Below the pieces are notes generated by a model that made no database searches, was not told where the DNA came from, and saw nothing but the letters and a program-made list of their open reading frames with translations. The translations under genes and the position numbers were made by a program. From an uncultured Bifidobacterium sp. (GTDB lineage Bacteria > Actinomycetota > Actinomycetes > Actinomycetales > Bifidobacteriaceae): DNA of 64,000 bases. The DNA lies in assembly GCF_945269915.1 (NCBI RefSeq), contig NZ_CALYOY010000004.1, forward strand, positions 1 through 64,000, read 5' to 3'. Shown piece by piece: positions 2,728 through 63,675 of this stretch; positions within the stretch are counted from its first letter, which is position 1; the number at the start of each line of letters is the position of its first letter.

Positions 2728-3099
2728 TTGCCAACAATTGAACAGCTCGTCCGCAAAGGACGGAAGGCCAAGCCTCGCAAGTCGAAGACCTTGGCGTTGA
2801 AGGGCAGCCCGCTGCGTCGTGGCGTCTGCACCCGTGTGTACACCACAACCCCCAAGAAGCCGAATTCGGCACTGCGTAAGGTGGCCCGTGTCCGCCTGAG
2901 CTCCGGCGTTGAGGTCAGCGCCTACATTCCTGGCGAGGGTCACAACCTCCAGGAGCACTCCATCGTGCTGGTGCGCGGCGGACGTGTCAAGGATCTGCCC
3001 GGCGTGCGCTACCACATCGTGCGCGGCGCGCTGGATACCCAGGGAGTCAAGGATCGCAAGCAGGGACGTTCCCTGTACGGAGCAAAGAAGGCCAAGTAA
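2728..3099 (+). CDS. rpsL: 30S ribosomal protein S12
   Basis: A 123-residue S12, the decoding-centre protein of the small ribosomal subunit. It begins with TTG ([11 protein letters not shown]). The conserved loops [13 protein letters not shown] (residues 39-51) and [11 protein letters not shown] (86-96) are complete. Lys43 and Lys88, the classical positions for streptomycin-resistance substitutions, are both wild type, so a susceptible S12 is expected. GGAGA lies about eight bases before the TTG. It is the first gene of the canonical actinobacterial str operon, three bases from rpsG. Confidence 0.98.
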
Positions 3100-3102
3100 A
3101 CC

Positions 3103-3573
3103 ATGTCACGTAAAGGACCAGCCAAAAAGCATCAGCTCCTGCCCGATCCCATCTACGGTTCGACCGTGGTGGCCCAGCTGATCAACAAGATCCTGCTCGA
3201 CGGCAAGAAGTCCATCGCCGAGGACATCGTCTACACGGCCCTGGAACAGGTCAAGGAAAAGACCGACCAGGAGCCTGTGGCCGTGCTCAAGCGCGCCCTG
3301 GACAACATCCGTCCCAGCCTGGAGGTCCGCAGCCGTCGTGTCGGCGGCGCCACCTACCAGGTCCCCGTCGAGGTCAAGCCCAACCGCGCGAACACGCTCT
3401 CCCTGCGCTGGCTGACCGACTACAGCCGTGCCCGCCGTGAGAAGACCATGGCCGAGCGTCTGGCCAATGAGATCCTCGACGCCTCCAACGGCCTGGGTGC
3501 AGCGGTCAAGCGTCGCGAGGATACCCACAAGATGGCCGAGGCCAACAAGGCCTTCGCCCACTATCGCTGGTAA
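3103..3573 (+). CDS. rpsG: 30S ribosomal protein S7
   Basis: A 156-residue S7 that nucleates assembly of the 30S head and contacts tRNA in the E site. The N-terminal MSRKGPAKK and the conserved [20 protein letters not shown] stretch (in the middle third) identify it. Length is normal for the family. It follows rpsL by three bases, with AAGG in the last codons of rpsL serving as the ribosome site, so the two are translationally linked. fusA follows after 26 bases. Confidence 0.98.
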
Positions 3574-3599
3574 TCAGAAGAGAGCGAGAACAAGGAATT

Positions 3600-5726
3600 A
3601 TGGCACAAGACGTGCTCACGGACCTGACCAAGGTCCGCAACATCGGCATCATGGCCCACATCGATGCCGGCAAGACCACGACGACCGAGCGTATCCTCTA
3701 CTACACCGGTGTCAACTACAAGATCGGTGAGACCCACGACGGCGCCTCCACCATGGACTGGATGGACCAGGAGAAGGAACGTGGCATCACGATCACCTCC
3801 GCCGCCATCACGGCCTTCTGGAACCGTCAGTCCCATGATCCCGAGGACACCTACCAGATCAACATCATCGACACCCCCGGCCACGTGGACTTCACGGCCG
3901 AGGTGGAGCGTTCCCTGCGCGTGCTCGATGGCGCCGTCGCCGTCTTCGATGGCAAGGAGGGCGTCGAGCCCCAGTCCGAGACGGTCTGGCGTCAGGCCGA
4001 CAAGTACGGCGTGCCCCGCATCTGCTTCATCAACAAGATGGACAAGCTGGGTGCCGACTTCTACTATTCGGTCGACACCATCAAGGACAAGCTGGGGGTC
4101 AAGCCCCTGGTCATGCAGCTCCCCATCGGAGCCGAGAACGACTTCCACGGCGTGGTCGACCTGGTTCGCATGGTCGCCTACTACTGGAAGGACGAGGCCG
4201 ACCTGGGCGCCAAGTACGAAACCATTGACATCCCCGACGATCTCAAGGACCGGGCAGAGCAGTACCACACCGAGCTCATCGAGGCCGTGGCCGAGAGCGA
4301 CGAGTCTCTGCTGGAGAAGTATCTGGGAGGGGAGGAGATCTCCCAGGAGGAGATTCGCAAGGCCGTTCGTAAGATGACGATCGATCAGACCGCCTTCCCG
4401 GTCTTCTGCGGTTCGGCCTTCAAGGACAAAGGCGTGCAGCCCATGCTGGATGCCGTGGTAGACTACTTGCCCAGCCCCGAGGACATCCCCGCAATCAAGG
4501 GGTACAAGGTCGGTGATGAGTCCGTCGAGATAGATCGCAAGCCCACAGTGGATGAACCCTTCTCGGCTCTGGCCTTCAAGGTCGCCACCCATCCCTTCTA
4601 CGGCAAACTGATCTACGTCAGGGTATACTCCGGCAAGGTGGCCCAGGGTGACACCATCCTGGACTCCACCAAGGGCAAGAAGGAGCGCGTCGGCAAGCTC
4701 TTCCAGATGCACTCCAACAAGGAGAATCCGGTTGATGAGGCCATCGCCGGCAACATCTACGCCTTCGTCGGTCTCAAGAGCGTCACCACCGGTGACACCC
4801 TGTGCGACGAGAAGGAGCCGGTGGTGTTGGAATCCATGACCTTCCCCGATCCCGTGATCGAGGTTGCCGTTGAGCCCAAGACCAAGGCCGACCAGGAGAA
4901 GATGGGCATCGCCCTGCAGAAGCTTTCCGAGGAGGATCCCACCTTCCAGGTCAAGACCGACGAGGAGTCGGGCCAGACCCTGATCTCCGGCATGGGCGAG
5001 CTCCAGCTGGACATCCTGGTGGACCGCATGCGTCGTGAGTTCCATGTGGAGTGCAACGTGGGCAAGCCCCAGGTCGCCTACCGTGAGACCATCCGCAAGC
5101 CCGTCATGAACCAGGAATACACGCATAAGAAGCAGACCGGTGGTTCCGGTCAGTTCGCCAAGGTGCTCATGAACTTCGAGCCCCTGGACACGACCGAAGG
5201 CGAGACCTATCTCTTCGAAAACAAGGTCACAGGCGGCCACATCACGAAGGAGTTCATCCCCTCGGTCGATGCCGGTGTACAGGAGGCCATGGAGTCCGGC
5301 ATCCTGGCGGGCTTCCCCGTCGTGGGTGTCAAGGCGACCCTGACCGATGGCCAGATCCACGAGGTCGACTCTTCGGAGATGGCCTTCAAGATCGCCGGCT
5401 CCATGTGCTTCAAGGAGGCCGCACCCAAGGCCAAGCCCGTCATCCTCGAGCCCATCATGGCCGTCGAGGTCCGTACTCCCGAGGAGTACATGGGCGATGT
5501 CATGGGCGACATCAACTCCCGTCGTGGCTCCATCCAGTCCATGACCGACGCCACCGGTGTCAAGGTCATCGACGCCAAGGTGCCCCTGTCGGAGATGTTC
5601 GGATACATCGGCGACCTGAGGTCCAGGACCCAGGGCCGCGCCATGTTCACCATGCAGATGGACTCCTACGCCGAGGTCCCCAAGGCCGTCAGCGACGAGA
5701 TTATCAAGGCCCAGCGCGGCGAGTGA
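3600..5726 (+). CDS. fusA: Elongation factor G
   Basis: A 708-residue translational GTPase that drives translocation and, with ribosome recycling factor, subunit splitting. The GTP-binding motifs are intact: AHIDAGKT (19-26), DTPGHVDF (G3), NKMD (G4) and an SAF-type G5 at GSAFKDKG. Domains II-V follow to the normal family length. AAGGA precedes the ATG. It is the third gene of the str operon. Downstream, a GC-rich hairpin and a separate structured leader set tuf apart. Confidence 0.98.
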
Positions 5727-5735
5727 ACACGCACC

Positions 5736-5756
5736 GGCCCGCCGACACGGCGGGCC
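5736..5756 (+). terminator. GC-rich hairpin after fusA
   Basis: GGCCCGCC and GGCGGGCC form a perfect 8-bp stem with a 5-base loop, ten bases after the fusA stop codon. There is no T tract, so it may attenuate or stabilise the str mRNA rather than terminate fully. Confidence 0.5.
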
Positions 5757-5781
5757 GCCTCGCCGGCCGCTTTCTGTCACC

Positions 5782-5811
5782 AGTCGGCGCTACACTCTTG
5801 TAGCGCTGACT
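5782..5811 (+). promoter_or_regulatory. 13-bp stem-loop in the tuf upstream region
   Basis: AGTCGGCGCTACA (5782-5794) and TGTAGCGCTGACT (5799-5811) pair over 13 bp with one G-U pair and a CTCT loop. It lies about 110 bases before tuf. TTGTAG in its right arm could also act as a -35 for a CATAAC -10 at 5822-5827. It may be an operator, an RNA leader element or part of a promoter; the sequence does not distinguish these. Confidence 0.45.
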
Positions 5812-5920
5812 GGGCGGAGGGCATAACTGGCAAAGAACCCAATTACCCAGTAATATGTAGCGAGTGCTCTGTGCGTGGTTCGTGCAGGCAAACTACGAAC
5901 GTCCAGGAGGACAAAACACA

Positions 5921-7120
5921 ATGGCAAAGGAAAAGTACGAGCGGACCAAGCCGCACGTTAACATCGGCACCATCGGCCACGTCGATCACGGTAAGACCAC
6001 ACTGACCGCGGCCATCTCCAAGGTGCTGCACGAGGAGTACCCGGATGTGAACCCCGAGTACGATTTCGCTTCGATCGACGCTGCTCCTGAGGAGAAGGAG
6101 CGCGGCATCACCATCAACATCGCGCACATCGAGTATCAGACCGCGAAGCGTCACTATGCCCACGTCGACTGCCCCGGCCACGCCGACTTCGTCAAGAACA
6201 TGATCACGGGTGCGGCCCAGATGGATGGAGCCATCCTGGTGGTAGCCGCCACCGACGGACCCATGGCCCAGACCCGTGAGCACGTTCTGCTGGCCCGCCA
6301 GGTCGGCGTGCCGAAGATCCTGGTCGCCCTGAACAAGTGCGACATGGTCGATGACGAGGAGCTCATCGAGCTGGTCGAGGAGGAGGTCCGTGACCTGCTC
6401 GACGAGAACGGGTTCGATCGTGATTGCCCAGTCATTCGCACCTCGGCCTATGGTGCTCTCCATGATGACGCACCCGATCACGACAAGTGGGTTCAGACCA
6501 TCAAGGATCTGATGGATGCCGTTGATGACTACATCCCCACCCCTGTCCACGACCTGGACAAGCCTTTCCTGATGCCCATCGAGGATGTCTTCACCATCTC
6601 GGGCCGTGGCACCGTGGTGACCGGCCGTGTCGAGCGTGGCAAGCTGCCCGTGAACTCCAACGTGGAGATTGTCGGCATCCGCGACACCCAGACCACCACC
6701 GTCACCTCCATCGAGACCTTCCACAAGCAGATGGATGAGGCCGAGGCTGGCGACAACACCGGTCTGCTTCTGCGTGGCATCGGCCGTGAGGACGTCGAGC
6801 GTGGCCAGGTTGTGGCTGCCCCCGGCACCGTGACCCCCCACCACAAGTTTGAGGGAGAGGTCTACGTGCTGACCAAGGACGAGGGTGGCCGTCACTCGCC
6901 GTTCTTCTCCAACTACCGTCCGCAGTTCTACTTCCGCACCACCGACGTCACCGGTGTCATCACCCTGCCTGACGGTGTCGAGATGGTCCAGCCCGGCGAT
7001 CACGCAACCTTCTCCGTCGAGCTGATCCAGCCCGTCGCCATGGAGGAGGGCCTGACCTTCGCTGTTCGTGAAGGCGGCCACACCGTCGGTTCAGGTCGTG
7101 TGACCAAGATCATCGAGTAG
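5921..7120 (+). CDS. tuf: Elongation factor Tu
   Basis: A 399-residue EF-Tu that delivers aminoacyl-tRNA to the ribosomal A site. GTPase motifs are GHVDHGKT (19-26), DCPGHADF and NKCD; domains II and III are complete to VTKIIE. The ATG at 5921 has CCAGGAGG ten bases upstream; the open frame before it is not supported. A candidate -10 TAATAT lies at 5851-5856, suggesting tuf has its own promoter in addition to any read-through from fusA. Two hairpins follow the gene. Confidence 0.98.
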
Positions 7121-7131
7121 TAGCTGTACCT

Positions 7132-7194
7132 GGGCGGGATTGATTTCCCGCCCGATGGGAAAGGGTCCGGTGCGTTTAGGCGTTCCGGACCCTT
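7132..7194 (+). terminator. Tandem hairpins downstream of tuf
   Basis: The first hairpin pairs GGGCGGGA (7132-7139) with TCCCGCCC (7146-7153). The second pairs AAGGGTCCGG (7161-7170) with CCGGACCCTT (7185-7194). Both stems are perfect, and the pair begins a dozen bases after the tuf stop, as expected for transcription termination. Confidence 0.75.
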
Positions 7195-7401
7195 CGCCTT
7201 GTAACGACAGAGGCGCATGGACCTCGGCCGGGAGGGGCGACTCCCCGGGCTCCCGTGTTCATGCACCGTGGCATAATGGGCGAGGATTCATTGCGAGCAG
7301 GTCATTCCCGTAGGGCAGGCCGGATGGGCCTTGGTAAACGGGTCGAGAGGTCGGCCTGTGTGGATCACGGCCCAATCATTCATGAGATAGGTGGTATCAA
7401 G

Positions 7402-53300: not shown

Positions 53301-55769
53301 TCAGATGACGATCAGGACCACAAGGAGGACGAAGTAGATCACGACCAGACCCATGAACCCATAGTCGATGCCCTGCAGGTGCGATTCCCGATAGTGTGTG
53401 CGGCCCTGGCCCCCCCGGTAGGCCCGGGCGTCCAATGCCTGTCCAAGGTTGTCGGCATGGCGGAGGGCGGCGGCGAAGACCGGGACCACGATGGACACCA
53501 TGGCGCGGGTCCGGCTGGACAGGTTGCCGCTTTCGACGCTGCCGCCCCTGGCCGCCTGGGCCTCCCGGATGGCCTGCATTTCACCGACCAGGGTGGGGAT
53601 GAACCGCAGGGCCAGGGAGAGGACCAGCGATATCTCGCTGGTGTGGATACCCAGACGGCTTAGGGGGGAGAGGAGGGATTCGAAGGCATCGGTCATCCGG
53701 GTCGGGGTGGTGGTCATCAGGAGGAGGGCCCCCAGGAGGAGGACCAGACCGAACCGGCAGGAGTAGACCAAGGCGGTCCTGAGTCCCTGGTCGGTGACGA
53801 TCAGGGGGCCCCATCGGGCCAGGATGGTACCCTCCCTGGTCACCAGGAGGTTGAGGAGGGCGACCACCGCCATGAGGGCCAGGAGACCACTGACCGATTT
53901 GAGCAGTTTCAGGGGGGAGATCCGGGCGGCGAGGATGATGGCCACGGTGGTCAGGGCGCCCAGAATCAGCTGAGGTCCGGTGCCGATGCAGAAGGAGGTA
54001 ACCATGAGCATGAGGAAGCAGACCATCTTGGCCCGCGGGTCCAGTCGCTCAACCAGGGAGGGCCGTCCCACCTGGTTTTCGCCCCCGGTGGCCGAAAGCG
54101 CCGAATCAGCCGGAACGGTCGTCTCTTCGCTTTCCATGGGAGCGCCCTGGGTCTGAAGTCCACGGTAATCCCGGAGCACCTCATCCACCCCGCCACGGGA
54201 AACCAGATGGCCCCGGTCCATGAGTATGGCCTGGTCGGCGAGCCGGCATACCTCCTCCTCGTCGTGGGTGATGAGGATGACGGTCACGCCCTGCTGGTGC
54301 AGGCCTTCCAGCATGGTTACGATGGTCTGTGCGGCCCGGGCATCCAGGCTTGCCGTGACCTCGTCCAGAACCAGGATCCGTGGAGAGGAGGCCAGGACCC
54401 CTGCTATGGCGACCAGGCGCTGCTGGCCTCCGGAAAGGTCGAAGGGGGACCTGTCCGACAGGTCCCCCAGTCCCAGCATGGAGAGGGCACGGTTGACGCG
54501 GCGCGTCACATCCTCTTTGTCGAAGCCGAGATTCCTGGGACCGTAGGCCACGTCCTGGGCGACGGTTTCGGCAAAGAGCTGGTGTTCGGGTTTCTGCATC
54601 ACATACCCCACCCGGTGCCGCAGCATCCGCAGCCGTTCCTTGGCCACCCGGCGACTGGTGGCCGCTCCCTCGCCGGCCAGGGTGATTCCGGCCACGGAGA
54701 GGTCACCCTCCTTGGGGGAGACCAGGGCGCAGATCAGCCGGGCCAGGGTGGACTTGCCAGAGCCATTGGGACCGAGAACCGCCAGGGTCTTTCCCTCTTC
54801 CAGGCTGAGGTCGAGGTGGTCAACCACGTTACGGTGCTTCTTATCGAAGCTGAAAGACAGGTTCTTGGCTGTTACGGCCGCTTCCTCCCCGCCTGGGGAA
54901 CCGGTCCGACCACTGTCGGATGCATCCGTCCAGGTGTCGGGGGTACCGGACCTGGGGGCATCGCCATGTGATACAGGCATGTCGGCATCGAACATATCCC
55001 CGTGCAGTTCCTCCTGCAAGCGGGACAGCGACTCCTCCGGCGACCCGACGGTGACGATTCTGCCCCGGTCGAGCACAATCACCCTATCGGCGGCCCTGGC
55101 TTCGTCCAGGAGGTGGGTGATATTGACCACCGCCTTACCATGGGCGGCCATGTCGGCCATGATCGTGGCAATTTTCCGGCGCCCTGCAGAATCCAGCATG
55201 GCACCGGGCTCGTCCATGACCATCATGTCCGGGTGCATGGCCAGGGCCCCGGCGATGGCAACCCGTTGCTGCTGGCCTCCCGACATCCTGGTCGGGTCGG
55301 ATCTGCGACGACCGGCCAGATTCACATACCGCAGGGCCTGGCTGACGGCCGCCTGCATGCAGGGCCGGGACATACCCCGATTCTCCGGTCCAAAGGCCAC
55401 ATCATCCTCGGTGACGGTGGTTACTATCTGGTCCTCCGGACTTTGGAAGACCATGCCAATGTGTTCCCTGGCCTGGCGGTAGGCTTCGGTATCAACCCGT
55501 TGACCGGGCGGCCGTGCCGAGTCGAAGACCACCCGCCCCATCAGTTCGATGCGCCCACGATCCGGAGCCAGGCTCCCGCTCAGGAGCCGGGCCAGGGTGG
55601 ACTTGCCCGACCCGTTGGCACCGATGATGCAGGTCTGCTGACCGCGCCGGATCGTCAGGCTGACCTCGTCAAGGGCCCACGTCCTGCCCTGGTCATAGCT
55701 GAAGGAGACCCTGTCCAGGACGGCCAGGGGTTCTCTGCCGTCAGCGGCTTTCATCGCACCTTCGCTCAC
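53301..55769 (-). CDS. ECF transporter energising module: EcfA-EcfA-EcfT fusion
   Basis: An 822-residue fusion. ATPase one (1 to ~240) has GANGSGKST and signature SGGQQQRV; ATPase two (~300-540) has GPNGSGKST and LSGGQQRLV with LDEVTASLD. The remainder is the EcfT membrane subunit with about five helices and the Ala-Arg-Gly-type motifs (QAARGGS, LDARAYRGG) that couple to the ATPases. In ATPase one the Walker B region reads MVMDEPGAMLD, so both sites look competent. It follows the S component by 48 bases. The start at 55769 (GTG) or 55754 (ATG) is uncertain. It powers uptake by the riboswitch-linked S component. Confidence 0.93.
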   Translation of the reverse strand: MSEGAMKAADGREPLAVLDRVSFSYDQGRTWALDEVSLTIRRGQQTCIIGANGSGKSTLARLLSGSLAPDRGRIELMGRVVFDSARPPGQRVDTEAYRQAREHIGMVFQSPEDQIVTTVTEDDVAFGPENRGMSRPCMQAAVSQALRYVNLAGRRRSDPTRMSGGQQQRVAIAGALAMHPDMMVMDEPGAMLDSAGRRKIATIMADMAAHGKAVVNITHLLDEARAADRVIVLDRGRIVTVGSPEESLSRLQEELHGDMFDADMPVSHGDAPRSGTPDTWTDASDSGRTGSPGGEEAAVTAKNLSFSFDKKHRNVVDHLDLSLEEGKTLAVLGPNGSGKSTLARLICALVSPKEGDLSVAGITLAGEGAATSRRVAKERLRMLRHRVGYVMQKPEHQLFAETVAQDVAYGPRNLGFDKEDVTRRVNRALSMLGLGDLSDRSPFDLSGGQQRLVAIAGVLASSPRILVLDEVTASLDARAAQTIVTMLEGLHQQGVTVILITHDEEEVCRLADQAILMDRGHLVSRGGVDEVLRDYRGLQTQGAPMESEETTVPADSALSATGGENQVGRPSLVERLDPRAKMVCFLMLMVTSFCIGTGPQLILGALTTVAIILAARISPLKLLKSVSGLLALMAVVALLNLLVTREGTILARWGPLIVTDQGLRTALVYSCRFGLVLLLGALLLMTTTPTRMTDAFESLLSPLSRLGIHTSEISLVLSLALRFIPTLVGEMQAIREAQAARGGSVESGNLSSRTRAMVSIVVPVFAAALRHADNLGQALDARAYRGGQGRTHYRESHLQGIDYGFMGLVVIYFVLLVVLIVI

Positions 55770-55817
55770 AACTTGTCCATTTCCAAAGGGAATAATCCTG
55801 CCCTGGTCCTTTGGGTT

Positions 55818-56429
55818 TCAGTCCTTGACCAGGTTCGAGATGGGCTTGTATATCAGGAAGGTGATTATGCCGTGGATGGTGAACTTGAGCAGGTTGAAGG
55901 GCAGAAGGACGGGGATGATCATGCCCAGGACCTGGTGGAAGCCCATGTGCGCGTAAATCGGGGTGATGACCAGGTTGCAGAGGAGTGCGGCCACCAGTCC
56001 CGTCACGGCCCCGACCAGGATGCCGATGACGGCGCCCTTGCGGGAGTGGATCCGCTTGTAGATGAGGGAGGCCGGAAGGCCCAGGGCCAGGGCCACGATG
56101 ATGGCGATCAGGGCGCCGAAGGGATTGCCGAATATATGGGGGAGGAATCCCAGGACCCCGACGATGGCGGCCGCCATGGGGCCGAAAGCGAACCCGGCGA
56201 TCAGGACCACGATTCCCGAAGGGTCGTACTTCAGGAAGGGGGCGGCCGGGAAGATGGGGATGGACACATAACTCAGGACGATGGTCAGGGCCACGAACAG
56301 GGCGTACATGGCGATGCGACGGGTCGACCATCGACCTGAGACACCGCCCGCCGTGGAGTGGGCGTCAAAGGGTTCCGTCCCGGAGGTTTCCTGGTTCTGG
56401 TGATTGTCGGTATGCGAAAGCATGCCCAT
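55818..56429 (-). CDS. ribU: ECF transporter S component, RibU-type riboflavin binder
   Basis: A 203-residue membrane protein. After ~40 polar residues there are six hydrophobic segments. FLKYDPSGIVVLIAGFAFGP resembles the substrate-binding loop region of RibU. An FMN riboswitch immediately upstream makes riboflavin or a related flavin the likely substrate. The start at 56429 has GAGG five bases upstream, directly after the riboswitch; 56423 is a second ATG. The fused EcfA-EcfA-EcfT gene follows in the same transcript. Confidence 0.9.
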   Translation of the reverse strand: MGMLSHTDNHQNQETSGTEPFDAHSTAGGVSGRWSTRRIAMYALFVALTIVLSYVSIPIFPAAPFLKYDPSGIVVLIAGFAFGPMAAAIVGVLGFLPHIFGNPFGALIAIIVALALGLPASLIYKRIHSRKGAVIGILVGAVTGLVAALLCNLVITPIYAHMGFHQVLGMIIPVLLPFNLLKFTIHGIITFLIYKPISNLVKD

Positions 56430-56440
56430 ATGGGCCTCGT

Positions 56441-56559
56441 TTCTTCCATCCGGACTGTAACCGTTGGCTTCGGACTCTCACCGATATCAACCGCCTGGGC
56501 GGGTCGCGGGCTCCCGGCACGCAACCGGATACCGCCAGTAAGGACTTTCACCTTCCCTG
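56441..56559 (-). promoter_or_regulatory. FMN riboswitch (RFN element)
   Basis: On the minus strand all conserved RFN blocks occur in order: GGTGAAAGTCC, ACTGGCGGTA, GAGCCCGCGACCCGC, GCGGTTGAT, TCGGTGAGAGTCCGAAGCC and AGTCCGGATGGAAGAA. It ends only eleven bases before the start codon, leaving no room for a terminator stem, so control is probably by hiding the ribosome site when FMN binds. Confidence 0.96.
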
Positions 56560-56862
56560 AAACTGACGATTACAATCTAGCAGCGGTCCATGGGCAGGTC
56601 AAACCCCTGTCATGAAGGCGCATCCGATCCATGCCGCCTGCCGAATGCGGGAGGTGCAACAAACGGCAGGGCATCGAACCTTAGACTCCTGCCTGCAGTG
56701 CACCATGCCGGGTGGGCCGTGGAGGGAGGAACCGTACACGGGTGTCCCGCCTTGCGGGTGACACGCCGGCGGAGAGGTCGACCGGACCTGTGCAACCATT
56801 GCAGTCTCCCTGACGAATATGTAGATGGTAAAAGATGCTGGATGCCGCAAGGAGGCCGGACC
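56560..56862. other. Divergent intergenic region, ribU riboswitch / sigma factor
   Basis: About 300 bases with no supported gene. It should contain the ribU promoter (minus) and the sigma gene promoter (plus). The open frame from 56590 that runs into the sigma gene lacks a ribosome site and conserved sequence. Confidence 0.5.
56791..56820 (+). promoter_or_regulatory. Candidate ECF-sigma-dependent promoter
   Basis: TGCAACC (56791-56797), 16 bases, CGAATAT (56814-56820). The AAC core of the -35 and the CGA-type -10 resemble promoters read by extracytoplasmic-function sigma factors. It lies about 45 bases before the sigma gene start, as expected for autoregulation. Confidence 0.4.
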
Positions 56863-57549
56863 ATGGAGACGAGGGAAGAGCACCCGCTGCCTGCAGCCGA
56901 TGCCGCCCCGGGGTCGCCCGGGGAATCGCTCGACATCCCCACACCGTCCATTTCCTTCTCAAATGCGGACGGGGATGATCCCGACCTTGGCGATTCCCGA
57001 CAGGAGGATGAGGAGTGGATCGGCAGGATTCTGGCGACGCGTTCCTCGCGGGCGGCCGACGACCTGGTCCGGAAGTACTACGATGACATCCTCGCTTACA
57101 TCCGGGTCCAGGTGGGCGAGCGTGAGGAGACCATGAACCTGACCCAGGAGACCTTCATCGCCGCCTTGCGGTCGTTGGGGAATTACGACCCGGGCAGGTC
57201 CGGCTTCAGGACCTGGCTCCATCGCATCGCCACCTACAAGGTGATCGACTACTGGCGAGCCCGTCGTCGACGGTTCCGCCGGAATACCTGGGAAGCACGG
57301 GGTCCGCTCGCTGCGGAGACGACCGATCCGTCGGACAGGGCCCTGGATGAGGATCTGGTTCGGCGGATCGAGAACCGTGTCTCCGTCGCCCCGATCCAGA
57401 CCCAGGAGGTCTTCCGTCTGCACCTCTACGGAGGGTATGGGTTCGCCCGGATAGCCCGGATGAATGGAGAACCCGAAGGAACGGTCAAAGCGCGTTATTA
57501 CCGCCTCGTAGAGGGGCTGAGAAAGGAATTTGGCCATGAACGACTTTGA
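56863..57549 (+). CDS. ECF-type RNA polymerase sigma factor
   Basis: A 228-residue sigma-70 family regulator. An acidic, probably flexible N-terminus of ~50 residues precedes region 2 (DDLVRKYYDDILAYI ... LTQETFIAALRSL ... FRTWLHRIATYKVIDYWR). A linker and region 4 follow (TQEVFRLHLYGGYGFARIA ... GTVKARYYRLVEGLRK). The start at 56863 is fixed by AAGGAGG seven bases upstream. The next gene overlaps its last 14 bases, so the two are coupled. No classical anti-sigma (zinc-binding or RsiW-like) is seen; the overlapping membrane protein may fill that role. Confidence 0.92.
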   Translation: METREEHPLPAADAAPGSPGESLDIPTPSISFSNADGDDPDLGDSRQEDEEWIGRILATRSSRAADDLVRKYYDDILAYIRVQVGEREETMNLTQETFIAALRSLGNYDPGRSGFRTWLHRIATYKVIDYWRARRRRFRRNTWEARGPLAAETTDPSDRALDEDLVRRIENRVSVAPIQTQEVFRLHLYGGYGFARIARMNGEPEGTVKARYYRLVEGLRKEFGHERL

Positions 57550-58423
57550 ACCGGATGTACGTCCCATCCTGATGGCCATGAGGGGGGCCGATGCCGAACC
57601 GGATACGGGCGCGGTGGCCGCAGGGGAGCGAATGCCCGTGTGGGACGAAGCGGAATACGGGCAACGGGAACGGTCCATCAGGATGATCAGGCGGAAGGGT
57701 CTGGAGAAAAGGCCAGGTCTGGTCAGAACCTTGGTGGGCGTGATCCGTTCCCTGGGGTTGCGGAACCTCCTGTTCGGACTCTGGGACTGCGTCTTCATCG
57801 GTCTGATCGCCTCCATCGTGATTTGGGCGGCCATCATCGGCGGGGTCAGTCAGACCCACTGGCTCAACAGGACCGATAGGCTCTTCGGCCTGGTCGTACC
57901 GGTCTTCGTCTGCTCCCCGGCCCTTTTCCTGGTCGTGCATTTCCTGGTGGTGGTCAAGGAGCGCAACCTGAATACCCTGAACCTGATCAGGACCTGCAGG
58001 TGGTCCTTCCGTCAAATAGCCACGGTGAGGATGTTCCTCTTCGGTATGGTCAGCATGATGGTCTCCTCCCTGGCCACGGTCCTCCTGGTGCGGACGGCCA
58101 ATCCGGGACTGCCGACCATGATCATTCTGGGAATCTGCTTCTCCTCCCTTTTTCTCTTCTCCCTGCTGCAGATGTGGGCGGAGGGGCACCTGCATACCGT
58201 TCCGGCAATGGTCCTGGTTCCCGCCCTCTGGATTCTCGCCGGTCTGGTCATCCAACTGATGCGATCCGAAATCGCCCCCTACCTGATGGCCATTCCACCC
58301 ATCCTCAGTCTGGCGACAGGCCTGACCCTGCTGGCGGTCTTCCTGGTGGTCCTGCACCGATACTGCACCGGAGACCGACTGGAGAAAAGGGTGGAAAACC
58401 TTGGAAGGCCGGTGATGGCATGA
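57536..58423 (+). CDS. Six-helix membrane protein coupled to the sigma factor
   Basis: A 295-residue protein. About 85 cytoplasmic, charged N-terminal residues are followed by roughly six membrane segments; a short basic tail ends it. I recognise no family. The start at 57536 has GAAAGGAA seven bases upstream and overlaps the sigma gene by 14 bases. The long cytoplasmic head and the coupling suggest a membrane anti-sigma or sensor, or an accessory of the transporters downstream; neither is shown by motif. Confidence 0.75.
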   Translation: MNDFEPDVRPILMAMRGADAEPDTGAVAAGERMPVWDEAEYGQRERSIRMIRRKGLEKRPGLVRTLVGVIRSLGLRNLLFGLWDCVFIGLIASIVIWAAIIGGVSQTHWLNRTDRLFGLVVPVFVCSPALFLVVHFLVVVKERNLNTLNLIRTCRWSFRQIATVRMFLFGMVSMMVSSLATVLLVRTANPGLPTMIILGICFSSLFLFSLLQMWAEGHLHTVPAMVLVPALWILAGLVIQLMRSEIAPYLMAIPPILSLATGLTLLAVFLVVLHRYCTGDRLEKRVENLGRPVMA

Positions 58424-58466
58424 AGGTCGGTTTACCTATCCGCAAGATGAAGGGGGAAAGGGCATC

Positions 58467-59318
58467 GTGCTGAACCTTGACCATATATCGAAGAGTTTCG
58501 GGGGCCATCGGGTCATTGACGATCTGAGTCTGACCTTCGACCTGGGGGTCCATGGGCTTCTGGCGCCCAACGGCGCGGGCAAGACCACCCTGATGCAGAT
58601 GATCGCCACCCTGATCCATCCAGACTCGGGCAGCATCACATGGCAGGGGCAGGACATCCTGGCCATGGATGAGGATTACCGCGGCCTGCTGGGATACCTA
58701 CCCCAGAAGTTCGGGTTCTATCCGGACTACAGTGCCACGGAATTCCTGATCTACATCGCCGCCCTCCAGGGGATCGGACGCAGACAGGCCAAACCCCTGG
58801 TGGCCGACCTCCTGGAGATGGTGGGGCTGGGTGACCGGGCGGGACAACGGATGAAGACCTTCTCGGGCGGCATGATCCAGCGAGTGGGGTTGGCCCAGAC
58901 CATGATCAACGACCCCGACCTGATCGTCCTCGATGAGCCGACGGCCGGACTCGACCCCCGGGAGCGGGTCCGTTTCCGTAGTCTCGTTCATTCTTTGGCC
59001 CAGGATCGGATCATCATCCTATCCACCCATATCGTCTCCGATCTGGAGACCATCGCCGATCGGGTCATCATGCTCAAGGATGGGAGGGTCCGCTGCAACC
59101 TTTCGCCGGGCCGGATCAGCGGCAGGCTGGAGGGAAAAATATTCCTGGTCCCCACCGGCTACCGCCTGGAAGAAGGGCAAGCCCTTCTGGAGGAGGAACA
59201 CGAGGGCGGGGAGACCAGCCTCAGAATCTACTCACCCTGGCCTCCGGATCAGGGACAGGTCGTGACACCTAACCTGGAGGATGCCTTTTTGGTGGTCTAC
59301 GGGGATGAGAGGTCATGA
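58467..59318 (+). CDS. ABC transporter ATP-binding protein
   Basis: A 283-residue ATPase: Walker A APNGAGKTT, signature FSGGMIQRV, Walker B LIVLDEPTAGLD, and His switch in ILSTHIVSD. A C-terminal extension of ~75 residues follows, as in ABC-2-type exporters. The start codon is GTG at 58467 with a purine-rich GGGGGAAAGGG upstream. It partners the permease at 59542. It lies 43 bases after the sigma-linked membrane gene. Confidence 0.93.
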   Translation: MLNLDHISKSFGGHRVIDDLSLTFDLGVHGLLAPNGAGKTTLMQMIATLIHPDSGSITWQGQDILAMDEDYRGLLGYLPQKFGFYPDYSATEFLIYIAALQGIGRRQAKPLVADLLEMVGLGDRAGQRMKTFSGGMIQRVGLAQTMINDPDLIVLDEPTAGLDPRERVRFRSLVHSLAQDRIIILSTHIVSDLETIADRVIMLKDGRVRCNLSPGRISGRLEGKIFLVPTGYRLEEGQALLEEEHEGGETSLRIYSPWPPDQGQVVTPNLEDAFLVVYGDERS

Positions 59319-59542
59319 TGGTCTTCCGGTCCCTCGAAGTCCATGACGGGGATGCCAACCGATTCCTCCGCAATCCCGCCCCGGCATCCACAGGTCCGGT
59401 ACCCGCCTGGCGGGGCGGATGGGTCATGTTCCCGTTCGGGGATGACTTCCCCTGCGTCTTTGCGGACCCAGGAGGGCGTGCGGATGCGCACGGACCGCGA
59501 AGAGAGGGCAGGCTGTCGCCTTCCTGGGGAGGGTGTCTCTGA
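59315..59542 (+). CDS. Possible small coupled ORF between ATPase and permease
   Basis: A 75-codon frame whose ATG overlaps the ATPase stop (ATGA) and whose TGA overlaps the permease ATG by one base (TGATG); AGAGG lies before it. It exactly fills the only gap in this row. The product is Gly/Pro/Arg-rich with no membrane segment and no recognised domain. It may be a real small protein, a translational coupler, or an accident in G+C-rich DNA. Confidence 0.4.
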   Translation: MMVFRSLEVHDGDANRFLRNPAPASTGPVPAWRGGWVMFPFGDDFPCVFADPGGRADAHGPRREGRLSPSWGGCL

Positions 59543-60786
59543 TGAGATGGACGACGGTCAGAAACGAGATGCGCCATCTTCTGGGGCCGTCCTTCTGGAT
59601 GACCCTGGTCCTGTCCCTCGCCTTTGTGGCCTGTCTGAATCTGGCCATGTACGACCAGGTTCCCACAGGGGATGCCCGGCATGAGGTGGCGGAGCATGGC
59701 CCCACGGCCACCCGGGCCTTCATGGCCGAGAAGGAGGGGGAGGCCCGGGGACTTGAACCGATGGTTTCCCGGGAGATGGAGTCCCTTAACCCCCAGGCCC
59801 GTGAACTGGGGGTGGTGGATTACCCGTCTGCCAGGGAGCTGGTCGACTCGGTACGGGGCGAGAAGCAGGCCGATCCCTCCCTCCCCGATTCCGCAAGAGG
59901 CAGATTGGTGGAGCGCATAGTATCCCAGCCTGCTTACAGCCGGCTTGCCGACTGCCATGATGCCATGGATGCGTACCTGCGGTGTAATCGTCATACCCTG
60001 ATACTGGCGGCCGTGAACCAGACGGGCAGGGAGGGGGGCCAAGGATCCACAGGTGGGGGAGGGGCCGGACAGGGAAGGGTAATCCTGCCCGGAACCGTGG
60101 AGGGGCGGGTCGATGACCTGGCCGGGCAATGCAAGGCGGGCATGGGTCTGGCCGCTCCCAGACTCCTGAGCTACACCCAGAGCAACTTCCGTGTTTCGAT
60201 GTATCTGGTCCCCCTCCTGGCGGCCCTGGCCATCACGGCTCCCCGTCTGACCAGGGACCGGGTCCGGAAGGTTCGCCAGACCCAATGGACAACACGGACC
60301 GGTAGACTCCTGCCCGGGCTGCAGGTGGTCACCCTGGTTGGTGCCGCCCTCCTGATGATGCTCATGGTGACAGCGGGATCCTTCCTGATGTGGCTCCCCA
60401 AGATCCATGGCCTCGACGGCCTCCCCGTTTTCGATGGGAGCAGACTGCCCTGGTTCACCTGGTCTCTGGGAGGATATCTGGCTGCGTTCATCCCGCTCTG
60501 CCTCATATCGGCCCTGACGGACACGCTTCTGGTCATCTGGATTTCCATGCACTGCCGTACCGACACCCGTCTGGTGCTGATTTCGGTTCCCCTGGTGGTG
60601 GCAATCTCCTTCTGGTCCATCGACCGGCTCCTGGTCGATCCGTACTGCATCGGCAATCCACTGAGCCGGTTTCTGCCCTTTCCGGGTATCGAATGCGTTG
60701 TCTGCCTGGGTCTCTTCGTCATGGCCGGCCTTCTCTGCTGGTGTTCGGCTCGAAGAATCCACAGGCAATCAACCATCGGCCTCTGA
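59542..60786 (+). CDS. ABC transporter permease (ABC-2 type)
   Basis: A 414-residue membrane protein. One helix lies at about 20-36, a large external domain of ~160 residues follows (37-200), then about five helices in the second half. This layout is typical of ABC-2-like export permeases paired with the preceding ATPase. ATG at 59542 follows GGGGAGGG at eight bases; the earlier GTG at 59533 overlaps that site and is disfavoured. The substrate is unknown. The next ATPase begins 55 bases later. Confidence 0.82.
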   Translation: MRWTTVRNEMRHLLGPSFWMTLVLSLAFVACLNLAMYDQVPTGDARHEVAEHGPTATRAFMAEKEGEARGLEPMVSREMESLNPQARELGVVDYPSARELVDSVRGEKQADPSLPDSARGRLVERIVSQPAYSRLADCHDAMDAYLRCNRHTLILAAVNQTGREGGQGSTGGGGAGQGRVILPGTVEGRVDDLAGQCKAGMGLAAPRLLSYTQSNFRVSMYLVPLLAALAITAPRLTRDRVRKVRQTQWTTRTGRLLPGLQVVTLVGAALLMMLMVTAGSFLMWLPKIHGLDGLPVFDGSRLPWFTWSLGGYLAAFIPLCLISALTDTLLVIWISMHCRTDTRLVLISVPLVVAISFWSIDRLLVDPYCIGNPLSRFLPFPGIECVVCLGLFVMAGLLCWCSARRIHRQSTIGL

Positions 60787-60841
60787 AATGGATCATCGAC
60801 AACCTGCCGTATCCGCGGCGACAATGAAAGGTACATTCATC

Positions 60842-61579
60842 ATGTTTGAACCACCGTTGAAGATGGAAAGGGTCTCCTACCACTACCGGGCGGGGAGCTC
60901 GGGAATAGACCGGATCGACCTGCAGTGTCCGGCAGGGTCCTGGACGGCGGTCATGGGGCCATCCGGGGCCGGGAAATCCACCCTGCTCTACTGCGCCTCG
61001 GGACTCTTGCCGGTCCAGGAAGGATCGGTCAAGATCGCGGGCCGTGATATCGCCGGAATGAAGGACTCGGCCCTGACCCGGATGCGGCGTGACCATATCG
61101 GGTTCATCTTCCAGGACTACAACCTGGTCGAGGCTTTCACCTGCCTGCAGAACGTCATGCTGCCACAGCTCTTCGGTGGCCGGGGGATTGGTTCCGCCCG
61201 GGCCCTGGAGGCCTTGCGGGTCCTGGGCCTGGATGGGTATGCAGGGCAGTATCCCGCCGACATATCCGGCGGCCAGCGGCAGCGTGTGGCCATTGCCAGG
61301 GCATTGGCCCTTCAACCGGACATGGTCTTCGCCGACGAACCCACCGGAGCATTGGATACGCGAAGTTCCGGGATGGTCCTTGATGCCTTTTCGACCATCG
61401 CGGAGGAGGGGGCAACGGTGCTCATGGTGACCCATGATCCCAACGTGGCCGCCCGGGCCCAGCGGGTGGTTTTCCTGGTCGATGGCGCCGTCCACTCGGT
61501 CTGCCAGGGGTATACGGCCGAAGAGATTGCCACACACCTGACCGGAATGACACTGACGGATGAGGTGGTGACAGGATGA
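60842..61579 (+). CDS. ABC transporter ATP-binding protein, MacB/LolD-like
   Basis: A 245-residue ATPase with Walker A GPSGAGKST, signature ISGGQRQRVAIARALA, and Walker B MVFADEPTGALD. The last is characteristic of the MacB/LolD/BceA group that partners FtsX-like permeases. ATG 60842 has AAAGGT nine bases upstream; ATG 60824 is an alternative. It overlaps the permease gene by four bases. Confidence 0.93.
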   Translation: MFEPPLKMERVSYHYRAGSSGIDRIDLQCPAGSWTAVMGPSGAGKSTLLYCASGLLPVQEGSVKIAGRDIAGMKDSALTRMRRDHIGFIFQDYNLVEAFTCLQNVMLPQLFGGRGIGSARALEALRVLGLDGYAGQYPADISGGQRQRVAIARALALQPDMVFADEPTGALDTRSSGMVLDAFSTIAEEGATVLMVTHDPNVAARAQRVVFLVDGAVHSVCQGYTAEEIATHLTGMTLTDEVVTG

Positions 61580-63675
61580 GACCGACAAGTGCAGGCCCCC
61601 AAGCCGGACATGACGAGCCGTTTGGCGGTTTCCGGCATGACGTCCCTTCCGGAGCCTTCCTGTCCGGAGGGGGTGGACACGCGTCGATTCATGGCCGCTC
61701 CTCGGGTGGCGGACCGACCTTCTTTTCCCTGGTGCGGTCCCTGGTCAGGGAACACCGGTCTTCCTACCTGGTCATGGGCCTGACCACCTTCCTGGCATCG
61801 CTCCTGACCTCGTCGACCATGCAGGTCTATCGGGCCGGGAAGGCGGAGGACGGCATGGGTGATCTGACCGGATTGAACACCTACCACCGGTACCTGTCCC
61901 GGGTTCCCTATCGGGGCATTTCCATTGTGACCATCCCGGCGCTCGCATGCTGCCTGCTGGTTTCGGTCTTCCTGGTCCTCTCTTCGGTTTCCTTCCTGGT
62001 CCAGGAACGGAGACGTGAGTACGGGATGATGCGGTTGAACGGCGCTTCCCGCTCAAGGATCACAGCCTTGGGGCTTCTGGAGTTCTCGGCCCCCCTGGCT
62101 GTGTCGAACCTGCTGGGTTGCCTGGTCGGATCCCTCCTGACCCTTCCTGTCGGGCGGTTCTATGCCGGTTCTGTGGAATTCGACAAGGCGGGGATGGTCT
62201 TTACCCCGAGGATCCGATTCTCCGTGGGGGTGGAGACCCTCATCCTGATGATGGGCACCTGTCTCCTGGGTGTCTGGATGGCCATGCGCAAGGTGGCCAA
62301 GGCCTCCCCGCTCCAACTGATGCAGGAGGCCACGGTCAGGGGCGGTCGGATTGGCTGGATCCGCTCCCTGGCCTTCCTGGTTCTTCTGGCCCTGACACTG
62401 GTGGTCGGGTTCGCCCCCCTGCCCTCCCTGACCCTGGACATGCGGAGCATGCTGGAGGTTATCCTGGTCATCACCACGGTCTACCTGGGTGCCCCCTTCC
62501 TGGTGGCGCTGTCCGTCTCGATCATCGGCCTGATCCCTGCGAAGGTCGCCGGAGGTCCGGGTCTTCTGGCCCGTCAACGCGCCCGCAGGGAGAGTGCCGG
62601 TTCGACCGCCATCGCCCTGCCGGCCATGATGATTCTGACCATTCTCATCTCCTTCGTCGCAGTCATGCAGGCAGGTTCCATAGGGGGTGCGGTCCTGCAA
62701 CTGGAGCCGCTGAAGGCGGATGTCATCGTTTCCTCGACCAAGGCGGGTGATGGATATCAGGATCCGACGGACCTGATCAGGGGGATGGCGGGAGTCCGGG
62801 CATCGAACACCTACTATTTCCAGAACTGGATGTTGGGTGGATCGGAAGACCAATCCGCCATCGTGGTCTGGGAATCCTCCGAACAGACACAGGAAAGGAA
62901 TTCTGATATCAGCCGTTTCACTCAGGTTTTGGGGAATCTGTCCGACCTGGGGCCGGGCCGGATCGCGGTCAGCGAGGATTCAGGGTATTCCCTGGGGGAC
63001 AGGGTCCGTCTCCTTGACCGTCAAGACCGGGAGCATGAGGCCCGGATTGTGGCTGTGGTGCAGCCTCCCCAGGGAATTCCCGAGCTGACGCCGCTCAGTT
63101 CCACCCCACTGTTCCTGACGGTTGATGATGCCCTGCCCAGACTTGGGGAAGACGGAATCGTGATGATGCCCATCCTTGCTTCAGACCGTGCCGGAAAGGA
63201 CCGCATCGTCTCCCGTCTGCGTAATGAGAACATGGACGGACTCAAGGTGCAGACCAGACAGGAGTACATTGATGACTTCATTCAACGTGGTCTTACCGGG
63301 CAGGTGGCCCTGACCGTCATGGTGGTCGGAGGAACGGTTCTCGCCTTGATCTTCATGATGCAATCCATCGCCATCGCGGCGGGGGAACGACGAGGTCGGA
63401 ATCGTCGGCTCCATCAGAACGGGGTTTCTCGGGCCTCCATAGTCTGGTCGGCGGTCATGGAGACCCTGACCGATGTGGTTGGTGGGGCGGTGATGGCCCT
63501 TTTGGCGGTTGCCATGGTAGAGGGTTGCCTGGCTCTGGGCTTCACGCGGTCAGGAATGTCGGCCTTCCTGACCCCTGTGCCGGTCCTTCCCTTCCTCGTG
63601 GTGACGGCTGTCCTCCTGATTGTGGCCACCCTGACCACCGTCCTCTGCAACTCGTCCAGCGATCATATGACCTGA
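61576..63675 (+). CDS. FtsX-like ABC permease
   Basis: A 699-residue permease. A polar Gly/Ser/His-rich N-terminus of ~50 residues precedes the first helix. The FtsX-like domain pattern then appears twice: helices at ~65-85, 115-140 and 160-190 and near 615-695, with intervening helices and an external domain at about 380-570. The cytoplasmic loop ERRREYGMMRLNGASRSRI is typical. Such pairs expel peptides or lipoproteins or act as bacitracin-type sensors. It is coupled to the ATPase (ATGA) and ends the row. Confidence 0.88.
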   Translation: MRPTSAGPQAGHDEPFGGFRHDVPSGAFLSGGGGHASIHGRSSGGGPTFFSLVRSLVREHRSSYLVMGLTTFLASLLTSSTMQVYRAGKAEDGMGDLTGLNTYHRYLSRVPYRGISIVTIPALACCLLVSVFLVLSSVSFLVQERRREYGMMRLNGASRSRITALGLLEFSAPLAVSNLLGCLVGSLLTLPVGRFYAGSVEFDKAGMVFTPRIRFSVGVETLILMMGTCLLGVWMAMRKVAKASPLQLMQEATVRGGRIGWIRSLAFLVLLALTLVVGFAPLPSLTLDMRSMLEVILVITTVYLGAPFLVALSVSIIGLIPAKVAGGPGLLARQRARRESAGSTAIALPAMMILTILISFVAVMQAGSIGGAVLQLEPLKADVIVSSTKAGDGYQDPTDLIRGMAGVRASNTYYFQNWMLGGSEDQSAIVVWESSEQTQERNSDISRFTQVLGNLSDLGPGRIAVSEDSGYSLGDRVRLLDRQDREHEARIVAVVQPPQGIPELTPLSSTPLFLTVDDALPRLGEDGIVMMPILASDRAGKDRIVSRLRNENMDGLKVQTRQEYIDDFIQRGLTGQVALTVMVVGGTVLALIFMMQSIAIAAGERRGRNRRLHQNGVSRASIVWSAVMETLTDVVGGAVMALLAVAMVEGCLALGFTRSGMSAFLTPVPVLPFLVVTAVLLIVATLTTVLCNSSSDHMT

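Follow-up and report, generated by a model that had tools for sequence, protein, structure and literature searches.

A conserved operon of an extracytoplasmic function sigma factor and an exporter in bifidobacteria, with a candidate anti-sigma factor of probable ABC-2 fold

Known membrane anti-sigma factors are mostly small, single-pass proteins, and many of them are cut by proteases. What holds an extracytoplasmic function (ECF) sigma factor in check whose gene is followed by that of a membrane protein (MP) with six helices and by genes of ATP-binding cassette (ABC) transporters? This question is raised by a set of six genes on the plus strand of a 64-kb stretch of contig NZ_CALYOY010000004.1 (the window) from an uncultured Bifidobacterium sp. 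with a genome of 1.97 Mb (G000). A preliminary description, made from the nucleotide sequence alone, had proposed a cassette of a sigma factor, a membrane protein and two ABC transporters in which the membrane protein may hold the sigma factor. Our comparative analysis delimits a conserved four-gene core with its own predicted promoter, and on balance we favor the view that this core represents a self-inducing exporter operon and that one of its subunits, of the ABC-2 type, acts at the same time as the anti-sigma factor in the membrane.

The conserved core of the unit

All six genes were recovered at the positions and on the strand first assigned to them. The unit starts with the ECF sigma factor (228 amino acids [aa]; 56863–57549), which matches the models Sigma70_r2 (Pfam; 57.1 bits, cut-off 24, E 1.6e-15) and TIGR02937 (75.5 bits, cut-off 42.9, E 3.7e-21), with region 4 slightly below its cut-off (24.1 vs 25.7 bits); it comprises regions 2 and 4 only, as is characteristic of the ECF class. 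Its start was set by the ribosome-binding site AAGGAGG (56849–56855, plus strand), which is kept in five close relatives, and another in-frame ATG is located at 56842. The 3' end of the sigma gene and the 5' end of the MP gene (295 aa; 57536–58423) share exactly 14 bases, the overlap reported initially. About 43 bases downstream of the MP follows ATPase1 (58467 [GTG] or 58470 [TTG] to 59318), an ATPase of the ABCA/NosF/DrrA type according to family models and PDB sequence matches, the nearest of which are ABCA proteins and NosF. The ABC-2-type permease perm1 (414 aa; 59542–60786) exhibits a large extracytoplasmic part after helix 1 (hydropathy); its assignment is based on ABC2_membrane_3, which was detected in three of nine orthologues (best E 8.2e-9), the window perm1 itself reaching only E 0.15.

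The conservation of the unit was investigated by searching whole genomes with the MP and subsequently with an MP profile. The MP is carried by 25 of the 189 genomes of the family, and all 25 loci harbor the orthologous sigma gene directly upstream and ATPase1 directly downstream, followed by one to three ABC-2-type permeases (tblastn). In every one of them the first ATG of the MP frame is located 11 to 35 bases inside the sigma gene. Homologous membrane proteins found mostly without sigma genes had been named in the preliminary description as evidence against a functional pair; the survey documents the opposite, as the sigma factor accompanies the MP in all 25 carriers of the family. In the reverse search, 14 of 149 relatives gave an ATPase1 match with an E of 1e-70 or lower, exactly the 14 with a credible MP, and the same strains hold the 14 best sigma matches. 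Named carriers are Bifidobacterium polysaccharolyticum, B. mizhiense, B. apousia and Bifidobacterium sp. B4142, with MP identities of 61–63%.

The ECF sigma factor, the MP, ATPase1 and the ABC-2 permease thus represent the conserved core of the unit, and the recurrence of gene order, overlap and promoter exceeds chance. The double ABC cassette is not its standard form, as had been assumed, because the second pair of ATPase and FtsX-type permease was found in just seven of 24 assessable loci, i.e. in the window, in its five close relatives and in G017 (window proteins as tblastn queries, a search that a diverged pair could escape; the contig of G048 ends too soon to be assessed). The gene content indicates that the double transporter is a lineage feature added to the four-gene core.

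Beyond the family the unit is rare. An even sample of 297 genomes of the order contained credible MP matches exclusively in family members, and in an even sample of 396 genomes of the phylum only G578, apart from the window genome, has the MP (E 4.5e-26). Its gene order of sigma, MP, ATPase, permease and permease is the same as in the core, and its MP starts with a GTG that overlaps the sigma stop codon by four bases or with a later codon, e.g. an ATG 107 bases on. The occurrence in a strain of another class shows that the unit is not confined to bifidobacteria. An MP match in G027 (E 2.5e-4, internal stops) and two order-level matches (E 0.004 and 0.007) were rejected as not credible, and 11 loci with relatives of the sigma factor outside the family were devoid of an MP-type match in tblastn searches. 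One of these 11 loci (L132 of G126, 2999–6491, minus strand) contains an ECF sigma gene, an ATPase1-like gene (33%) and a five-helix open reading frame (ORF) on one strand, without the MP.

The distance between ATPase1 and perm1 required a correction. A small ORF of 75 codons (59315–59542) had been counted as a gene, which reduced all gaps to 55 bases or less, but the ORF lacks a Pfam or NCBIfam match, its GC3–GC2 difference is just 0.09, it has no meaningful DNA match to 14 other loci, and a comparison with the extra permease X described below, of which it might be a relic, gives a best tblastn E of 0.34. The interval (59319–59541, plus strand) is thus a real gap of 223 bases in which domain, codon and DNA comparisons reveal no credible gene. 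The genes of ATPase1 and perm1 lie nearly end to end in the five close relatives. The permease-like gene X (406–408 codons) is inserted between ATPase1 and perm1 in G006 and G017 (L031, L032); X-like matches are also present in L038 and in all 11 loci from L111 to L121, with X located after perm1 in L119. Altogether X or an X-like match was found in 14 of the 19 loci that remain when the window and its five close relatives, all six without X, are set aside.

A predicted promoter and a probably narrow regulon

The alignment of the regions upstream of the sigma gene from eight loci revealed a block that is kept in the window and its close relatives and has the format of an ECF-type promoter, TGCAAC-N17-CGAATA (56791–56819, plus strand; -35 box 56791–56796, -10 box 56814–56819). 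The -10 box ends 43 bases ahead of the sigma start codon. The promoter box is present in all 25 family loci: it is exact in 16 of them, as a single copy directly 5' of the sigma gene, and the remaining nine show one or two mismatches at the same spacing of 17 bases, with the -10 box CGTATA and, in six cases, the -35 box CGCAAC. Among 1000 Markov shuffles of the upstream regions, a box with at most two mismatches at this spacing appeared in 23 and an exact one in none. The -10 variant CGTATA is limited to two branches of the sigma tree, which fits recognition of the box by the cognate sigma factor, and G578 harbors TGCAAC-N17-CGTACA ahead of its sigma gene.

The sigma gene is hence preceded by a predicted ECF-type promoter of its own, and no second copy with at most two mismatches was found inside the operon. 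Independent promoters of the ABC genes had been named as evidence against a common control; a single ECF-type promoter ahead of the genes, together with an order, an overlap and a promoter that recur in 25 of 25 loci, supports the initial view that the genes form one unit.

In the window genome the exact box occurs only once, at the operon. Six sites with one mismatch, vs one for the reversed control pattern, all fall within open frames of at least 100 codons. The uniqueness of the box suggests that the sigma factor probably transcribes its own operon and little else, i.e. that its regulon is narrow. A scan of 45 other genomes revealed the exact box at the operon in 15 of 24 carriers, in 13 of which it is the sole genomic copy; additional exact copies are present in G048 (one) and G372 (two), and the carrier G411 has two copies elsewhere. 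The box was also found in four of 21 non-carriers. In total, the scan yielded 24 exact sites in 20 genomes vs six sites in five genomes for the reversed control.

One of these four non-carriers, G002, has retained a left-over promoter in the absence of all six genes. Its sequence matches that of a relative up to the first codons of the sigma gene and then again from just past the FtsX gene, and the blastn comparison fits one deletion of about 6.5 kb; the bare promoter is located on the reverse strand of L185 (G002:C4) at about 7100–7240. Another strain, G025, keeps a sigma fragment and the -35 box without the -10 box. These remnants indicate that the unit was lost together in both genomes.

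Fold and possible role of the membrane protein

Hydropathy confirms the six helices of the MP that had been predicted next to the sigma gene. The statement that a standard anti-sigma factor is missing also holds true. Zinc-type (ZAS) anti-sigma factors are characterized by the motif HxxxCxxC, which is absent from the cytoplasmic head of the MP, whose residues 1–84 contain neither Cys nor His, and there is no anti-sigma match in Pfam or NCBIfam. No model of these databases names the MP. An AlphaFold model was built from a 12-row alignment, with an overall predicted local distance difference test (pLDDT) of 72 and a predicted TM-score (pTM) of 0.67. Most transmembrane (TM) segments reach a pLDDT of 80–93, the TM2–TM3 link and the elbow helix 61–75, residues 38–60 about 48–56 and residues 1–36 less than 50.

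Subunits of ABC-2/type V exporters follow a common plan of an elbow helix, six TM segments, a coupling helix between TM2 and TM3 and a short helix between TM5 and TM6. The helix order of the model, i.e. an interface helix (62–78), TM1, TM2, 147–153, TM3, TM4, TM5, 243–252 and TM6, corresponds to this plan, and the predicted short helix of residues 147–153 (57974–57994, plus strand; pLDDT about 61–63) occupies the place of the coupling helix. The first 12 rows of the Foldseek search are all ABCG or NosY (E 0.095–0.70), and VIA-align lists 50 matches, each of them an ABC-2/type V exporter or CcmB, a set filled by one fold that does not exclude others; it includes ABCG5/8, a mycobacterial pump, ABCA4, NosY, PmtCD and CcmB (best match: Z 12.3, 217 residues, root-mean-square deviation 4.6). 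The MP profile matches that of perm1 with E 1.2e-4 and probability 55 (12 rows) or E 1.4e-5 and probability 80 (18 rows), and Pfam ABC2_membrane_3 is hinted at in three of 12 MP members (best E 0.043), whereas a PDB sequence search with the MP profile returned no match. Based on these matches, the MP likely has the fold of ABC-2/type V exporters, and instead of being a generic membrane protein it is probably related, if distantly, to the permease of the operon.

NosY, PmtCD and CcmB begin at MP residues 64–79 in the VIA-align alignments, which marks residues 1–63 (57536–57724, plus strand) as an addition that probably lies in the cytoplasm. Of the cytoplasmic head of 85 residues in the preliminary description, residues 62–78 are modelled as the interface (elbow) helix. 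Residues 1–37 are variable and residues 38–60 conserved in most members (consensus RERSIxxIVxxGxPxR); this motif is recognizable by eye even in G578, and its residues 38–55 (57647–57700, plus strand) are modelled as a helix with low confidence. In one branch the MP is much longer (406–415 aa; L038, L111 and also L115 and L118), with a long low-complexity N-terminal insertion in L038 and L111, as though the length of the head were unconstrained. The TM2–TM3 region is strongly conserved, with E142, W156, R165 and M166 invariant and R155 nearly so (18 rows). This stretch would touch the ATPase, and its conservation suggests that the MP still works with ATPase1.

The following mechanism is conceivable. 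The sigma factor would transcribe its own operon from the nearly unique box TGCAAC-N17-CGAATA, and the MP, an ABC-2-type subunit with an added N-terminal extension, would be made right after it from the overlapping start codon. In the resting state the extension would serve as the contact by which the MP holds the sigma factor at the membrane and inhibits it. When the transporter, composed of ATPase1 with the MP and/or perm1, encounters its substrate or is perturbed, the MP might change its shape and set the sigma factor free, which would result in more transporter and, in the lineage of the window, also in more of the attached second transporter. The state of the transporter would be the signal, so that the pump itself may determine when the sigma factor turns on, and the substrate might be an antimicrobial or envelope-active compound. 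An anti-sigma function of the MP, our working hypothesis, appears fairly probable to us. We propose only tentatively, as a possibility of some doubt, that a working ABC-2 exporter subunit acts as anti-sigma factor through its conformational cycle, without proteolysis, and that bifidobacteria evolved or copied this design at least twice.

Several points weigh against this interpretation. The Foldseek E-values are all 0.095 or worse, the pTM of the model is 0.67, and a Z of 12 is below the caution line of the tool for helical bundles (about 13); the assignment of the fold therefore depends on the agreement among the hits and on the profile match. The putative anti-sigma domain is slim, since conservation is absent from its first 37 residues and the model of the remainder has low confidence, and in some members the extension is short (about 30 residues ahead of the elbow helix in the genus g8). 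Furthermore, the 25 loci represent fewer independent lineages, since the five close relatives are near-duplicates and one and the same MP sequence occurs in two loci. Finally, the MP might just be a regular subunit of the transporter, with the sigma factor controlled otherwise.

The latter scenario is the strongest alternative, even if we regard it as rather unlikely: the MP would be a structural exporter subunit only, the overlap would set expression levels, and the sigma factor would be run by its own transcription or stability without any anti-sigma factor. The probable ABC-2 fold and the conserved TM2–TM3 region are in accordance with this explanation, and so is the association of the MP with a single ATPase and one to three further permeases. 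Some ECF groups lack a linked anti-sigma factor, and one of these groups, ECF257, adjoins ABC transporters, according to sections of PMC8999054. However, the tie to the sigma gene in 25 of 25 loci and an N-terminal stretch beyond NosY, PmtCD and CcmB would need another reason, and a self-activating sigma factor without inhibitor would tend to lock on. Clearly less probable is a dedicated anti-sigma factor that retains the exporter fold without cooperating with the ATPase any longer; the transporter would then be only the output. The MP indeed accompanies the sigma factor invariably, whereas permeases differ in number between loci, and unlike perm1 it lacks a large extracytoplasmic part, but the TM2–TM3 region of would-be ATPase contact is among its most conserved parts. 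That the six genes are neighbors by chance or separately regulated is hardly credible, as the absence of the second ABC pair from most loci and a weak sigma-70-like match (60796–60825, in a region with three such matches vs 1.7 in shuffles) are opposed by the family-wide conservation of order, overlap and promoter, by the same order and box in G578, and by the joint loss in G002.

Accessory genes, related units and known systems

The lineage-specific second transporter of the window consists of ATPase2 (60842–61579) and an FtsX-domain permease (61576–63675; Pfam FtsX 1.2e-16), whose genes overlap by four bases. The PDB matches of ATPase2 to BceA (E 3e-45) and MacB (E 8e-47) are about equal. 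BceB is a permease of the FtsX type with 10 helices, of which helices 7 and 8 flank a large extracytoplasmic part; the window permease likewise has 10 hydrophobic helices, with about 210 residues separating helix 7 from helix 8 (residues 365–576), as judged from hydropathy only. The designation as a MacB-like ATPase/FtsX pair is hence appropriate for the MacB/BceA-type ATPase and the FtsX domain, but the helix layout of the permease is that of BceB rather than MacB. Its three PDB sequence matches are weak (E 0.04–0.1; YtrF, permease 5xu1 and LolF), and BceB was not found among them. A further difference from BceAB transporters is that the second pair would, by its position, be driven from an ECF operon. 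In G017 the FtsX-type permease gene (L032, 14875–16871) is split into two ORFs, as if by a frameshift.

The genome contains a second ECF unit (G000:C2; L153, 5627–9902) with sigma2, MP2 (278 aa, a hydrophilic N-terminus plus a membrane part), two small permease-like proteins, an ATPase that is 39.5% identical to ATPase1 and a DUF2511 protein of 141 aa with a lipoprotein-like start. This unit recurs in relatives, and no clear promoter box was seen ahead of it by eye. A sequence relationship of MP and MP2 is not supported (E 0.43), and MP2 matches the perm1 profile with E 0.023 over 24 columns; only the layout is therefore common to the two ECF units. A third ECF sigma match (G000:C8:46298–46813; L192, 4160–4948, minus strand) is followed just downstream on the same strand by a Cys-containing ORF of 104 aa (L192, 3820–4134), and our guess is that the two may represent the sigmaE/anti-sigma pair of bifidobacteria.

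Divergent from the sigma operon, the window harbors genes of a riboflavin energy-coupling factor transporter. An FMN riboswitch (Rfam RF00050, 83.4 bits; 56434–56568, minus strand) precedes the S component (Pfam ECF-ribofla_trS), which is followed by an 822-aa fusion of two ATPase domains and a CbiQ/EcfT membrane domain (region 53301–56429, minus strand).

The operon sigY-yxlCDEFG of Bacillus subtilis comprises an ECF sigma factor, membrane regulator(s), an ABC ATPase and a permease, and it is transcribed by its own sigma factor. By its layout it is the nearest ECF case to the window unit known to us. The window sigma factor is far below the cut-off of the SigY family model (62.7 vs 194 bits), which none of the three sigma matches in the window genome exceeds, and YxlC is a small protein and not an ABC-2-fold subunit. 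ABC-2/type V exporters such as NosFY, PmtCD, the mycobacterial pump with Rv1218c and ABCG5/8 share the predicted fold of the MP, and ATPase1 is nearest to ABCA and NosF, but NosY, PmtCD and CcmB lack the equivalent of MP residues 1–63, and we know of no sigma partner of these exporters. In the LytTR systems of Streptococcus (HdrRM, BrsRM, SMU_433/434, SMU_1070c/1069c), a regulator gene is followed by that of a membrane inhibitor, the regulation is positively autoregulatory, and ABC transporter genes are linked in some cases (PMC6193735). According to the sections of this source on the systems, their logic of a regulator held off by a membrane protein with positive feedback is the same, but the activator belongs to the LytTR family instead of the sigma factors, and the inhibitor is not described there as having an ABC-2 fold.

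In the literature, which covers subscription papers poorly here, we found no description of this unit or of a transporter subunit as anti-sigma factor. What the current study adds is the promoter box, the delimitation of the conserved core, the evidence that the MP probably has an exporter fold, and the losses. BceAB-BceS senses flux, and a transporter subunit acting as anti-sigma factor would, if true, represent a different way of sensing in parallel to it, by which the cell would measure its need for transport directly and without proteolysis. The promoter box and the clean pairing of sigma factor and MP make this proposal directly testable in bifidobacteria and provide a signature to find further units.

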